DNA of 64,000 nt from Bacteroidota bacterium. GTDB lineage: Bacteria > Bacteroidota > Bacteroidia > SXHM01. Positions 11,026-38,068 of this stretch are shown in pieces. Within the stretch, counting starts at the first letter, position 1; each line of letters begins with the position of its first letter. The translations under genes and the position numbers were made by a program. The notes beneath the pieces were generated by a model. That model worked only from the letters and a program-made list of their open reading frames with translations, was not told the origin of the DNA and searched no databases. The stretch spans positions 1 through 64,000 of the forward strand of contig CANJWH010000003.1 of assembly GCA_947478465.1 (NCBI GenBank). Reading direction: 5' to 3'.

Positions 11026-11031
11026 AGGGTA

Positions 11032-11039
11032 CAAAGATA
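11032..11039 (-). promoter_or_regulatory. -7 box TATCTTTG of the thioesterase gene
   Basis: An exact TAnnTTTG match on the minus strand, only 6 bases before the ATG at 11025. Transcription starting 5-7 bases downstream would begin essentially at the start codon. The -33 position would fall inside the neighbouring terminator. Confidence 0.55.
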
Positions 11040-11044
11040 ATCAG

Positions 11045-11092
11045 CAATAAATAAAAAACCCCGCGCTTTTGCGCAGGGTTTTTTATTTATTG
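11045..11092 (-). terminator. strong terminator of the T9SS cargo gene
   Basis: A 22-bp stem with one mismatch (core ACCCCGCGC / GCGCAGGGT) around a TTTT loop and flanked by A/T runs, 11 bases downstream of the stop of the 11104-12183 gene. It is nearly symmetric. Confidence 0.9.
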
Positions 11093-17120: not shown

Positions 17121-17135
17121 TAAAATAAAGAAACA

Positions 17136-17166
17136 AAAAGCCCCTCGCCAAAGGCGAAGGGCTTTT
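17136..17166 (-). terminator. terminator of the rpsU-xerC-hpf operon
   Basis: A 14-bp GC-rich stem with one mismatch (AAAAGCCCCTCGCC / GGCGAAGGGCTTTT) and an AAA loop, 18 bases past the hpf stop. On the minus strand it continues into a T-rich tract. Confidence 0.88.
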
Positions 17167-17183
17167 CAAAGATTTGATTATTG

Positions 17184-17483
17184 TTATAAACCTTTAATTT
17201 TTTCTTTGTGTTTTTTTATTTGTCTTGTTAGTGCTTCCACTGCTGTGTCGGTAGCTTCCTCAAAGGTTTTGCATTGTTTTTTTACAAATAAATCATTGCC
17301 CGGAATATGAAGTTTTATCTCAGCAACTTTATTTTCGGTATTGCTGTTTTTGTCAAGTTTAAGAAATACCTCGCTTGCAATTATTTCATTGTAAAAATGA
17401 CCTAATTTGTCCACTTTTTCTTCTACGAACTGAAGTAGTTTAACATCAGCGTCAAAATGGATACTTTGAATTTTCACTTTCAT
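17184..17483 (-). CDS. hpf: ribosome hibernation-promoting factor, short form
   Basis: 99 residues of the HPF/RaiA (YfiA) family: MKVKIQSIHFDADVKLLQFVEEKVDKLGHF, the central VFLKLDKNSNTENKVAEIKLHIPGNDLFV and a basic C-terminal helix (RQIKKHKEKIKGL). It binds the 30S decoding centre of idle ribosomes. The long-form dimerisation domain is absent. It is the last gene of rpsU-xerC-hpf, an order I recall as common in this phylum. Uniquely among the starts I checked, it has a strong Shine-Dalgarno sequence, AAGGAGG, ending 5 bases before the ATG and immediately after the xerC stop. Confidence 0.93.
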   Translation of the reverse strand: MKVKIQSIHFDADVKLLQFVEEKVDKLGHFYNEIIASEVFLKLDKNSNTENKVAEIKLHIPGNDLFVKKQCKTFEEATDTAVEALTRQIKKHKEKIKGL

Positions 17484-17497: not shown

Positions 17498-18385
17498 TTA
17501 TGCCCTTGGATGGGCTTGTTTATAAATTGATTTTAATTTCTCTATTGTGTTATGCGTGTAAATTTGTGTGGCTGAAAGATTGGTGTGACCAAGGATTTCT
17601 TTTATCGTGTTTAACTCGGCTCCGTTGTTCAGCATATGCGTTGCAAATGTGTGTCTCATAACGTGCGGGCTTCTTTTTTCTATCGTTGTGACAAGGCTAA
17701 GGTAACTATTCACAAGACTGTAAACAAGTTTTTCGCCCATTTTTTTGCCTTTGTCATTCACAAAAAGAACTTCATTATCCATATTTTTTCCGGTTTGCTT
17801 CTGTTTTTCAGCGAGATAGACTTTAAGAGAGGCAGCCAGTTTATCTGTGAACGGGATAATCCGCTCTTTATTTCGTTTACCTAAAACTTTAAGCTCACGA
17901 TTGTAAAAATTAATGTCAGAAGTTTTCAAATTAATTAGTTCTGCCCGCCTCATTCCAGTTGAATAAAGCATTTCCAGCACTAACTTATCACGTTTTCCCT
18001 TAAAACCAGGTTTAAATTCAAGCGTATTAAACAATTGCTCCATATCAGGCTCGCTGGCAAAGTGAGGAATTTGTTTTTTCACTTTCAGAGCAGTAATTTT
18101 CTGTGTTGGATTGTAGTCAATCACTCCTTCACGTTTCAGAAACTTGAAGTAGGAGCGAAGTGCGGTAATTTTTCTATTTACGCTGCGCGGATTGAGTTCT
18201 TTCTCCATCAGAGAAACAATCCAGGCGCGCACATCGTGGTGCTCGGGTTTGTGCTCGTCAGGCAATTGAAGTTCCCCTTTCATGAAAAGGTAGAACTGAC
18301 TTAAGTCGTTTTTGTAAGAAATCAGGGAATGAGGCGAGTAACGTCTTTCCTTTTTCAGATAATCAATGAAAGTTTCAATCGCCAT
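17498..18385 (-). CDS. xerC: tyrosine recombinase, XerC/XerD type
   Basis: 295 residues, full length. An N-terminal SAM-like core-binding domain (about 1-85) precedes the catalytic domain. The active-site residues are all visible: Arg in STGMRRAEL (about 146), Lys170 in VLGKRNK, His241 and Arg244 in SPHVMRHTFATH, His267 in ILGHTNLSATQIYTH and the nucleophile Tyr276. Xer recombinases resolve chromosome dimers at dif sites. Its operon position between rpsU and hpf, rather than next to mobile genes, supports a housekeeping role. C versus D cannot be settled here. The ATG directly follows the T run of the rpsU hairpin. Confidence 0.92.
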   Translation of the reverse strand: MAIETFIDYLKKERRYSPHSLISYKNDLSQFYLFMKGELQLPDEHKPEHHDVRAWIVSLMEKELNPRSVNRKITALRSYFKFLKREGVIDYNPTQKITALKVKKQIPHFASEPDMEQLFNTLEFKPGFKGKRDKLVLEMLYSTGMRRAELINLKTSDINFYNRELKVLGKRNKERIIPFTDKLAASLKVYLAEKQKQTGKNMDNEVLFVNDKGKKMGEKLVYSLVNSYLSLVTTIEKRSPHVMRHTFATHMLNNGAELNTIKEILGHTNLSATQIYTHNTIEKLKSIYKQAHPRA

Positions 18386-18392
18386 AAATAAA

Positions 18393-18457
18393 AAAGGAAT
18401 TTGACTTTAGTACGAAGGCAAACGGTTAAAGTTTACCTTTATAAGTCAAATTCCTTT
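18393..18457 (-). terminator. compound terminator/attenuator hairpin between rpsU and xerC
   Basis: A perfect 15-bp outer stem (AAAGGAATTTGACTT and complement, 18393-18407 and 18443-18457) encloses a second 7-bp stem (18417-18423 with 18431-18437, one wobble pair). On the minus strand the structure runs into TTTTTTATTT and then the xerC ATG. It probably ends most rpsU transcripts and limits read-through to xerC-hpf. Confidence 0.8.
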
Positions 18458-18508: not shown

Positions 18509-18706
18509 CTAAGCCTCTTCTTCTGCTCTTCTAAGGCCTTGAACGTAAACGGCCTTTTTTATTTCGGTTCTTCTTTTAACCGAAGGCTTTGTAAATTGTT
18601 GTCTTTCACGAAGTTCTTTAACAACAGCAGTTTTTTCAAACTTACGTTTAAACTTCTTAAGAGCTCTTTCAATGTTTTCGCCTTCTTTGATAGGAATTAC
18701 TAGCAT
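18509..18706 (-). CDS. rpsU: 30S ribosomal protein bS21
   Basis: 65 residues, very basic and helical. MLVIPIKEGENIERALKKFKRKFEKTAVVKELRERQQFTKPSVKRRTEIKKA is the standard bS21 sequence with the Bacteroidota C-terminus (LRRAEEEA). The protein sits on the 30S platform near the 3' end of 16S rRNA; in Flavobacterium johnsoniae it is known to help occlude the anti-Shine-Dalgarno. Here it heads rpsU-xerC-hpf with a full -33/-7 promoter. The leader of about 25 bases is A-rich and shows no Shine-Dalgarno, unlike reports for rpsU of some relatives. Confidence 0.96.
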   Translation of the reverse strand: MLVIPIKEGENIERALKKFKRKFEKTAVVKELRERQQFTKPSVKRRTEIKKAVYVQGLRRAEEEA

Positions 18707-18734
18707 GTTTTTATCTTTTTTTTAAAACGGGCTG

Positions 18735-18764
18735 CAAAGATAGAAAAAGGTTTTTAATCACAAA
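18735..18764 (-). promoter_or_regulatory. rpsU promoter (TTTG-N18-TATCTTTG)
   Basis: On the minus strand TTTG (18764-18761) is followed after 18 bases by TATCTTTG (18742-18735), the same spacing as the T9SS cargo promoter at 12230-12259. The rpsU ATG is 28 bases downstream. Confidence 0.75.
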
Positions 18765-18798
18765 ATCGGTTTCAATATTAATTTAGCCGCTTCTTGAA

Positions 18799-20904
18799 AT
18801 GGCAGGAACTTTTTTAGAAACCCCGATAGAATACCTCAAAGGAGTTGGTCCGGAGCGCGGCAAATCGTTAAGGGCCGAGTTGAGCATTGAATGCTTTGCC
18901 GACCTGCTTTCTTATTATCCCTTCCGCTATGTTGACCGTACTAAGTTTCATAAAACCACAGAGTTGGATGCCGATATGCCTTATGTGCAGTTGAAAGGCA
19001 AAATAATTTCAATGGAAGTAATTGGGAAAAGTCGTCCACAAAGGTTAGTTGCTGTTTTTAAAGATGATTTCGGTAAAATTGATTTGGTCTGGTTCCAGGG
19101 AATAAAATGGGTTAAAAATTCAATCAAGCCCGGAACTGAATATGTGATTTTTGGGAAACCAACGGTTTTTAACGGGAAGTTCAATATCGCACATCCTGAA
19201 GTAGATGAAGTGAATGAAGAAAACCTGAAACTGCAAAGCGCCTTGCAGGCCATGTATAACAGCACAGAAAAGCTGAAACTGAAAGGACTGGATAGTCGTG
19301 GGATTTCAAAACTTGTTCGTGCACTTATGCAAACCAGTGATAATAAAATTCCTGAAAATCTGCCTGTTGAAATTATTAACAGCAACCATTTTATTTCAAG
19401 GGGAAGTGCTTTTTATCAAATTCATCTTCCTGCAAATCCAGAGCTGCTTAAAAAAGCAGAATTACGTTTGAAATTTGAAGAGCTTTTTTACATACAGTTG
19501 ATGTTGTTGCGCCAGAAAGCAATCAACCAGAAAATATATCACGGTTTCAGGTTTGGCAGTATTGGCGAACATTTCAATGCGTTTTTTAAAAATAACCTTC
19601 CGTTTGAATTAACAAATGCGCAGAAACGGGTTTTAAAAGAAATTCGTTCAGATGTTGGTTCCGGAAAACACATGAATCGCCTTTTGCAGGGCGATGTAGG
19701 AAGCGGAAAAACAATTGTTGCGCTGATGACTATGCTTATGGCATTGGATAACGGTTTTCAAGCTTGTCTGATGGCACCAACCGAAATTCTGGCGGTTCAG
19801 CATTTTGAAAGCATTACTGCACTTCTGAAAGGCATGAATATAAAAGTGGGTTTGCTCACAGGCTCTTCAAAAGGTTCAGCACGGAAGCAAATTCATGAAC
19901 AGTTGCTTTCAGGTGAAATGCATATTTTACTGGGAACCCATGCCTTAATTGAACCAATTGTTCAGTTTAAAAATTTAGGGATGGTAGTGGTTGACGAGCA
20001 GCATCGTTTTGGAGTGGAGCAGCGCGCCAAACTTTGGAGAAAAAATGTCAACCCACCCCATGTGTTGATTATGACTGCAACACCGATTCCACGAACGTTG
20101 GCAATGACACTTTATGGCGATCTTGATGTTTCAGTTATTGATGAATTGCCACCGGGGCGTCAACCGATAAAGACCATTCATCTTTTTGATTCAAACCGGT
20201 TGAAAATTCATGGGTTCATGAAAGAACAAATTAAGTTGGGAAGACAGATTTATGTGGTATATCCGTTGATTGAAGAGTCTGAAAAAATGGATTACAAAGA
20301 TCTGATGGAAGGTTATGAAAGTATGTTGCGTGCTTTTCCGCGACCTGAATATCAGGTGAGCGTTGTGCATGGAAGAATGACTGCAAAAGACAAAGATTTT
20401 GAGATGCAACGTTTCCAAAAAAATCAAACTAATATCATGGTAGCAACAACGGTAATCGAGGTTGGTGTAAATATTCCCAATGCTTCGGTAATGGTGATTG
20501 AAAGCGCGGAACGTTTCGGACTTTCGCAGTTGCATCAGTTGCGCGGAAGGGTTGGTCGCGGTGCCGATCAGAGTTATTGTATGTTGGTTACATCGTTCAA
20601 ACTTTCTGCCGATGCAAAATTGCGTTTAGAAACCATGTGCAAAACCAATGATGGTTTTGAAATTGCAGATGTTGATTTGCGTTTGCGCGGACCAGGCGAT
20701 TTGGCAGGAACGCAGCAAAGCGGACTTCCCGATTTTAAAATTTCAAACATTGCAACGGACGGTGCAATTCTTACTGAGGCGCGAAACGCAGCGTTAAAGA
20801 TTCTGGAAGACGACCCGCAATTTTCACAACCCAAAAACAATGTGATTGCTTTGTATTTGAATTTTATCAATCGCAATAAACAGGACTGGGCGAGGATTTC
20901 ATGA
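18799..20904 (+). CDS. recG: ATP-dependent DNA helicase RecG
   Basis: 701 residues. The N-terminal wedge OB domain (about 60-150) is followed by the SF2 helicase core: Walker A LLQGDVGSGKTIVALM, the DEQH box VVVDEQHRFGVEQR, motif III TATPIPRTLAMTLYGDLDVS and motif VI LHQLRGRVGRGADQSYC, with the RecG-specific C-terminal part (DLRLRGPGDLAGTQQSGLPDF). It remodels stalled replication forks and branch-migrates Holliday junctions. It is divergent from rpsU. The lipoprotein gene downstream is on the same strand with a 43-base gap and its own -7 box. Confidence 0.97.
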   Translation: MAGTFLETPIEYLKGVGPERGKSLRAELSIECFADLLSYYPFRYVDRTKFHKTTELDADMPYVQLKGKIISMEVIGKSRPQRLVAVFKDDFGKIDLVWFQGIKWVKNSIKPGTEYVIFGKPTVFNGKFNIAHPEVDEVNEENLKLQSALQAMYNSTEKLKLKGLDSRGISKLVRALMQTSDNKIPENLPVEIINSNHFISRGSAFYQIHLPANPELLKKAELRLKFEELFYIQLMLLRQKAINQKIYHGFRFGSIGEHFNAFFKNNLPFELTNAQKRVLKEIRSDVGSGKHMNRLLQGDVGSGKTIVALMTMLMALDNGFQACLMAPTEILAVQHFESITALLKGMNIKVGLLTGSSKGSARKQIHEQLLSGEMHILLGTHALIEPIVQFKNLGMVVVDEQHRFGVEQRAKLWRKNVNPPHVLIMTATPIPRTLAMTLYGDLDVSVIDELPPGRQPIKTIHLFDSNRLKIHGFMKEQIKLGRQIYVVYPLIEESEKMDYKDLMEGYESMLRAFPRPEYQVSVVHGRMTAKDKDFEMQRFQKNQTNIMVATTVIEVGVNIPNASVMVIESAERFGLSQLHQLRGRVGRGADQSYCMLVTSFKLSADAKLRLETMCKTNDGFEIADVDLRLRGPGDLAGTQQSGLPDFKISNIATDGAILTEARNAALKILEDDPQFSQPKNNVIALYLNFINRNKQDWARIS

Positions 20905-36275: not shown

Positions 36276-36309
36276 AGAGGCTTGTTTTGCAAAGGCAAAA
36301 CAAGCCTCT
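36276..36309 (+). terminator. terminator of the giant T9SS gene
   Basis: A perfect 15-bp stem (AGAGGCTTGTTTTGC and complement) with an AAAG loop. It ends 7 bases before the ATG of the next gene at 36317. Confidence 0.85.
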
Positions 36310-36316
36310 TTGATTT

Positions 36317-38068
36317 ATGAGAGTGGTGAATAAATTTTTTTCAGGTCTTATTGTTGCAATGTTTGCGCTGATTACTGGGTGTGCAAATATCGTTACACCT
36401 TCCGGTGGTGATAAAGACATAGCGCCACCTAAAATTCTGCAACTTGTTCCCGAAAATCAAAGCTTGAATTTTAGCTCTAAATCATTTGTTATTTCGTTTA
36501 ATGAGTTTGTTCAATTAAACGATATAAGTTCTCAGTTGATTGTTTCGCCTCCGTTGAAATCGTTGCCGGAATTTATAGTCAAAGGCAAAAATGTGATTGT
36601 AAAATTCAATGAAGCGTTGTTGCCTAACACAACCTATACCATGAATTTCGGGAGCGCTATTCGCGATATCAACGAAAATAATCCGCTTGAAGGATTTACG
36701 TATGTTTTTTCTACAGGTAGTTTTATTGATTCTCTTTCATTGAAAGGCTCGGTGAGAAATGCCTTAACACTTGAGAATGAGAAAGAGGTATTGGTTTTAT
36801 TGTATGAAGAAAATACCGATTCTATTCCTTTCCTCAAGCTACCTTATTACTATGCAAAAACAGACGGTTCAGGAATTTTCGCCTTGGATAATCTGAAGTC
36901 AGGGAAATTTAAAGTAGTGGCACTCAAGGATGAGAATTCAAGTTTTCTATACGATGATTTCGATAAAGAAAGAATAGGTTTTGTTGATACTTTGGTTTCA
37001 CCTTATTTTATTGAAAAAGCAAAACCTGAAAAAGCAGACAGTCTGAAATCGGATTCTATTCCTGTTGCTAAAGCAGATACGATCTCTAAAGAAATGGGAA
37101 TGAAAAAATCAGGCGAAAAAACTTTATCGCTTTATATTTTCAAAGAAGAAAAGAGTAAGCAGTATTTCAAAAAGGCATACTGTGAGTATTACGGCAAATT
37201 GGTTTTTATTTTCAATAAAAAACCGGAAGAGCTGGTACTAAACACACTTAATACTTCTTTTAAAAAAGAATGGAATATTCAGGAGCAAAGCGTAACAGGT
37301 GATACTGTTATTGTTTGGTTAAGTGATGTGGAAATGGATAGCCTTAAGCTCGAAATATCTGACAAAGGAACTGTTCTTGACACCGTTGAGCTTGCTCTGA
37401 AAAAACGCAATGATAAAATTGAGACACAAGGTGGTTCATCAAAAGGCGCAAAAAAGACAGCACCCTTCAAGTTGCTAATAGAACAAAGCAAAGCCGCTTT
37501 AATCCATAATGCCGCCAAAGATTTTTACATCACCTTCAATCATCCTGTAAAAGATTATGTGATTGAAAATTTAATGCTGAAAGAAGATAGTCTTCCAGTA
37601 AAATTTGTTCTTGATTCAAAAGACCCGGCATTAAGAAAATACCTAATTCGTTATAAATGGAAAGAGGAGAAAAAGTATGAACTCTTTTTGCCGCCCTCAA
37701 CAGTTACCGATATTTTTGACTTAAAAAACGACAGTATAAAAATCAATTTTACTACACAGGCAAAAACCTATTTTGGCAATGTTCAGTTCATCCTGAAAGC
37801 TAAACCTGAAAATTATATCCTGCAATTAACGGATGACAAGAATAACATCGTTTTTGAAAAGCCTGCAACAGGCAACGACAAATTTTCTGTTGAAGGATTA
37901 GACCCCAAAAGCTACAACTTGCGCTTAGTGGTTGATGAAAATAACAACGGCAAATGGGACACCGGAAACTATTTGCAGAAACGTCAAGCCGAAAAAATTA
38001 TCCTCTACCCCAAAAAAGTAACTGTCCGCAGCAATTGGGATGTTGAAGTGGAATGGGAGGTAAAATAA
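36317..38068 (+). CDS. lipoprotein with N-terminal bacterial Ig-like (SbsA/Big_5) domain
   Basis: 583 residues. The signal ends in a lipobox ALITGC|AN. The domain at about 35-140 (APPKILQLVPENQSLNFSSKSFVISFNEFVQLNDI...LLPNTTYTMNFGSAIRD) is the Big_5/SbsA Ig-like domain. The rest includes a second beta-sandwich-like region (SLKGSVRNALTLENEKEVLVLLYEE), a Lys/Ser linker and a C-terminal segment RLVVDENNNGKWDTGNY, which resembles a calcium-binding-like turn. It is a conserved Bacteroidota envelope protein, localised by lipid to the outer membrane; its function is unknown. The start follows the preceding terminator by 7 bases. Confidence 0.82.
   Translation: MRVVNKFFSGLIVAMFALITGCANIVTPSGGDKDIAPPKILQLVPENQSLNFSSKSFVISFNEFVQLNDISSQLIVSPPLKSLPEFIVKGKNVIVKFNEALLPNTTYTMNFGSAIRDINENNPLEGFTYVFSTGSFIDSLSLKGSVRNALTLENEKEVLVLLYEENTDSIPFLKLPYYYAKTDGSGIFALDNLKSGKFKVVALKDENSSFLYDDFDKERIGFVDTLVSPYFIEKAKPEKADSLKSDSIPVAKADTISKEMGMKKSGEKTLSLYIFKEEKSKQYFKKAYCEYYGKLVFIFNKKPEELVLNTLNTSFKKEWNIQEQSVTGDTVIVWLSDVEMDSLKLEISDKGTVLDTVELALKKRNDKIETQGGSSKGAKKTAPFKLLIEQSKAALIHNAAKDFYITFNHPVKDYVIENLMLKEDSLPVKFVLDSKDPALRKYLIRYKWKEEKKYELFLPPSTVTDIFDLKNDSIKINFTTQAKTYFGNVQFILKAKPENYILQLTDDKNNIVFEKPATGNDKFSVEGLDPKSYNLRLVVDENNNGKWDTGNYLQKRQAEKIILYPKKVTVRSNWDVEVEWEVK

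Follow-up and report, generated by a model that had tools for sequence, protein, structure and literature searches.

What ends the transcription of rpsU, and where does that of xerC and hpf begin, when rpsU and xerC are separated by 123 bp and the final 72 bp of this gap are filled with a hairpin and its T tail? The locus lies in a window of 64,000 nucleotides, the whole stretch of DNA analysed here, from a genome of 3.41 Mb in 131 contigs that belongs to the class Bacteroidia. The order of the genes on the minus strand is rpsU, xerC, hpf, and recG is divergent from them with its start at 18799. rpsU (18509-18706) encodes ribosomal protein bS21 of 65 aa (TIGR00030, 57.8 bits, above the cut-off). 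xerC (17498-18385) encodes a tyrosine recombinase of the XerC/XerD type of 295 aa (TIGR02224, 309.9 bits, slightly under the cut-off of 335), and hpf (17184-17483) encodes a ribosome hibernation promoting factor of 99 aa (TIGR00741, 47.9 bits, above the cut-off). On the 3' side of hpf a pattern scan and the sequence reveal a compact terminator-like hairpin with higher G+C content (17134-17168, minus strand).

The promoter of rpsU is predicted at 18735-18765 of the minus strand by its match to the published -33/-7 consensus. It consists of TTTTG (18765-18761), a spacer of 18 nt and TATCTTTG (18742-18735), with the predicted transcription start at about 18730, and is identical across five species of the genus. 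The rpsU leader (18707-18734, minus strand) is A-rich and has no Shine-Dalgarno sequence in all five of these species. In many Bacteroidia rpsU is reported to be preceded by a strong Shine-Dalgarno sequence, and autoregulation by bS21 is described (PMC9976891). In this genus such autoregulation may be absent or different.

Structure of the hairpin

From 18457 to 18386 the minus strand reads AAAGGAATTTGACTT-ATA-AAGGTAAAC-TTTAACC-GTTTGCCTT-CGTACTA-AAGTCAAATTCCTTT-TTTATTT, and the ATG of xerC comes next, at 18385. The arms of the outer stem, each of 15 nt (5' arm 18443-18457, 3' arm 18393-18407), form 15 perfect pairs, 18457-18443 with 18407-18393. The 9-nt arms of the inner stem (5' arm 18431-18439, 3' arm 18415-18423) form nine pairs in the fold, one of which is G-U. 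The T-rich tail TTTTTTATTT (18395-18386) follows the 3' arm directly and lies on the transcribed strand of rpsU, as is characteristic of a terminator. It extends up to the xerC ATG, and its first three T are paired with AAA in the 5' arm. Hence, the 15-bp outer stem and the tail reaching the start codon, both noted in the sequence-only reading, are confirmed, while the inner stem is longer than the seven pairs given there. The same reading placed the structure across the initiation region of xerC. However, 7 nt separate the end of the stem from the ATG, and the stem thus does not include the start codon.

The minimum free energy of the 83-nt region is -32.0 kcal/mol, compared to -11.6 ± 2.7 kcal/mol for its shuffles (z = -7.45), and none of the 200 shuffles equals it. 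The neighbourhood of the hairpin ranks sixth in stability among 31,964 windows of 72 nt on both strands and second after the adjustment for G+C content. The stem is composed mainly of A-U pairs and the composite loop is long, in contrast to the compact terminator after hpf. The combination of a G+C-rich stem with a short loop, which is typical of intrinsic terminators and is no requirement for them, is absent here, and the pattern scan with loops of 3-8 nt missed the hairpin. No Rfam model matched in the window at gathering scores.

Three other roles of the structure are excluded. It is not a repeat element, as it is present in the genome in a single copy. It is not a terminator of a plus-strand gene, as none ends there and recG begins only at 18799. 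Finally, an attenuator with an alternative pairing upstream is excluded by the divergence of the 5' part of the gap within the genus.

The rpsU-xerC hairpin is not unique in the window, because other strong hairpins also adjoin start codons, near 36317 on the plus strand and near 543 on the minus strand. These hairpins, at 36276-36319 and about 543-590, respectively, end 5-10 nt before an ATG on the same strand; therefore, the close spacing of terminator and start is not restricted to xerC. The highest stability in the window is that of a hairpin at 11030-11090 of the minus strand, whose long stem is nearly perfect and flanked by A and T tails. This hairpin is immediately followed by the -7 box TATCTTTG, with an ATG 8 nt beyond the box, which makes it another pile-up of terminator, promoter and start.

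Conservation of the hairpin

We compared the gap in the five species of the genus in which it is readable. Two further sister genomes were left out since their contigs end inside rpsU; both stop after codon 19 of the gene, probably as an effect of assembly. In the arms of the outer stem 14 of the 15 positions are identical in all five species, and the fifteenth pair is U-A, U-G or G-C. The upstream half of the gap varies freely. Pairing is kept in 97.5% of the cells and falls to 22-58% when the partners are slid by 1-3 columns. A check of covariation had been proposed together with the terminator assignment, and it returns one two-sided compensatory change in the outer stem and one in the inner stem. 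Since shuffles of the 3' letters match the observed values in 47 of 500 cases, this covariation, which is modest and comes from few informative changes, is only suggestive.

For the wider comparison the rpsU-xerC gaps were drawn from a balanced set of Bacteroidia genomes and from 80 GTDB loci, which gave 146 distinct gaps after filtering. A hairpin was considered strong if it had a T tail and a free energy of at most -15 kcal/mol, and dinucleotide shuffles served as the control. In 23 of the 146 gaps such a hairpin has its end no more than 15 nt from the xerC start, compared to a mean of 0.7 in the shuffles, and in another 21 it ends farther off (0.9 in the shuffles). The distance to the start codon is 0-9 nt for 21 of the 44 strong hairpins, and the others are spread across 10-170 nt. 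With a looser criterion an abutting hairpin (≤15 nt) occurs in 19 of 45 families, against 5 of 113 same-strand gaps of the genome studied here, a control which is only rough because it covers 464 kb of this single genome with crude gene calls. Between the families the sequence of the hairpin cannot be aligned, while its position, the stem and the T tail recur.

Many other rpsU-xerC loci among the 146, chiefly of Prevotella, have no hairpin. Nine loci of Bacteroidales MAGs share a gap of about 50 nt with similar sequence and without a hairpin. It ends with GGTTCCTTYATG, often with AGGGG directly 5' of it, which may be a signal of the Shine-Dalgarno type, rarely used in this class.

The anatomy, the pairing at the genus level and the repeated occurrence at this position in many families uphold the earlier assignment of the hairpin to rpsU as its terminator. 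The hairpin is real and conserved and is probably an ordinary terminator, in a layout that is unusually tight. As judged from sequence, the hairpin is most likely an ordinary stop signal of rpsU.

Candidate promoter of xerC

Of the 146 loci, 61 have the -7 box of Bacteroidota, TAnnTTYG, within 80 nt upstream of xerC, compared to 13.5 expected (at most 21 in 200 shuffles); related species are counted separately here, and relatives of Prevotella supply many of the cases. The box mostly ends 20-40 nt before the ATG, and a TTG located exactly 20 nt upstream of it forms a sharp peak of 32 cases. The enrichment is class-wide and represents a promoter signal. Among the loci with the abutting hairpin the box is present at 18-42 nt in 12 of 37, compared to 1.5 expected, and in 8 of 32, compared to 1.2, when this genus is left out. 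Some of the hairpin-abutting loci of other families have no exact box.

In four sister species the box, TACCTTCG or TACATTCG, is part of the hairpin sequence at a distance of 27-28 nt from the xerC ATG. The alignment and the enrichment place the candidate box of the window, TGCCTTCG, at 18413-18420 of the minus strand, 27 nt before the ATG. It has one mismatch to TAnnTTYG, as the conserved A is missing. In the genus the box overlaps the 3' arm of the inner stem and the internal loop, and its TTCGT is invariant, although C, G and T are unpaired in the internal loop in the fold of the window. With the -7 box set at positions -12 to -5, as published (PMC9723704), the xerC transcript is predicted to start at 18408, one base 5' of the outer 3' arm, with a leader of 23 nt.

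The promoter claim is weaker for the window than for the sister species, because the promoter-matrix score of the window is no better than that of shuffles (p ~0.26) and the TTG of the genus is located 25 nt before the box instead of about 20 nt. The -33 box is described as weak in Flavobacterium in published work. A promoter 5' of the hairpin (TACATTCT in the window) is excluded, as it is not conserved in the sister species. Taken together, xerC probably has a promoter of its own.

Proposed mechanism

We consider it likely that the hairpin is the intrinsic terminator of rpsU, with the T tail meeting the start of xerC, and that xerC-hpf is transcribed mainly from a promoter located in the hairpin. 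Transcripts starting at about 18730 would end in the T run near 18390, so that the mRNA of rpsU would be short, about 340 nt. This fits the report that rpsU of F. johnsoniae is transcribed alone (PMC9976891). xerC-hpf would be transcribed mainly from its own promoter, with the -7 box within the 3' half of the hairpin and the start bordering on the 3' arm. Since the predicted start is at this border, the own mRNA of xerC would not contain the hairpin. Read-through from rpsU may contribute some part of xerC expression. The earlier view of xerC-hpf as a read-through product is thus probably incomplete, because the -7 box is enriched class-wide and the four sister species have it within the hairpin, although the box of the window carries the mismatch.

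More tentatively, the rpsU terminator and the xerC promoter could form one overlapping DNA element, in which the hairpin encloses the -7 box and which is under joint selection in parts of Bacteroidia; we regard this as possible but not as the expected outcome. If it is true, the same 3' arm serves as a terminator in one transcript and as an unstructured leader in the other, and the output of xerC-hpf is kept independent of the very high transcription of rpsU. Should the overlap prove correct, several families of Bacteroidia would share this compact layout. A literature search on rpsU-xerC in Bacteroides found nothing.

A plain partial terminator without an internal promoter, with xerC-hpf expressed solely by read-through from rpsU, is an unlikely alternative. 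It would agree with the degenerate box and the unremarkable promoter score of the window and with the hairpin-abutting loci that lack an exact box, and the T1 terminator between rpsU and dnaG of E. coli is a precedent for an attenuating terminator at rpsU (PMC7863352). However, it leaves aside that the box is kept at an equal distance in the four sister species, besides its enrichment in the class.

The hairpin could instead act on translation, a possibility raised in the sequence-only reading. As a translational insulator, the read-through RNA would fold back and block translation of xerC, and the RNA started at the proximal promoter, which lacks the 5' arm, would be translated, as in gene e of phage T4. 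We consider this improbable. The geometry suits such an insulator, as transcription is predicted to begin at the border of the 3' arm, and initiation in Bacteroidota is sensitive to structure (PMC6847099). In other families opening of the start region costs on average 14.6 kcal/mol with the 5' arm and 5.5 kcal/mol without it, for 24 loci that were chosen by hand among the hairpin-abutting ones and with an assumed leader of 21 nt for the short RNAs. This comparison is unmatched, however, and 47 loci without the hairpin average 11.4 kcal/mol with full-length leaders. In the window, opening of the region from -15 to +12 costs 12.3 kcal/mol for the RNA that reads through from rpsU and 11.5 kcal/mol for the short RNA. 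The two costs are nearly equal because in the short RNA codons 11-14 of xerC, which are rich in purines, pair with the U-rich leader. Also the start codon lies beyond the stem. Hence, translational control of xerC is unsupported in the window, while the difference is large in other families. A literature search on the fold-back of IS10 found nothing.

That the inverted repeat is a mobile or recombinase-binding palindrome, i.e. a repeat element or a dif-like site, is suggested by its position next to a tyrosine recombinase gene, but is extremely improbable, since it is present in a single copy with the arms 35 nt apart and is largely refuted by the turnover of its sequence between families in which the stem and the T tail recur.

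Transcription of rpsU up to the T run and of xerC-hpf mainly from within the hairpin would explain how a gene for a ribosomal protein, which is highly transcribed, and a recombinase gene of low level share a gap of 123 bp, with the terminator, and probably the next promoter, in one element. The knowledge of termination and of XerC is unchanged by it.

Comparison with known systems

In gene e (lysozyme) of phage T4 the promoter is located inside a hairpin, so that the 5' arm is missing from the short transcript, and the hairpin blocks translation of the longer transcripts (PMC3014915). The predicted xerC promoter within the hairpin sequence resembles it in geometry. The T4 hairpin acts on translation, with either the ribosome-binding site or the start codon hidden in it, whereas the stem between rpsU and xerC stops 7 nt short of the ATG and is followed by a T tail. 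Sequestration of the start in the longer transcript only, which is the feature of T4 gene e, is not seen in the opening costs of the window, and no effect on translation is predicted there.

The candidate xerC promoter is similar to the promoters of the primary sigma factor of Bacteroidota (-33 TTTG, -7 TAnnTTTG). The type of the box and the predicted 23-nt leader fit the published maps, with a median leader of 24 nt in F. psychrophilum (PMC9723704). Unlike in these promoters, the xerC box is mostly TAnnTTCG, overlaps the terminator stem in the genus and has one mismatch in the window.

A comparable arrangement is that of T1 of E. coli, a rho-independent terminator which limits transcription downstream of rpsU (PMC7863352). 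In both cases a terminator comes directly after rpsU and upstream of a gene of DNA transactions, although here it is recognized by sequence. The downstream genes are xerC-hpf here and dnaG-rpoD in E. coli. Compared to T1, the hairpin described here has a greater length and nested stems rich in A+U. Its T tail reaches as far as the following start codon, and it seems to enclose a promoter box.
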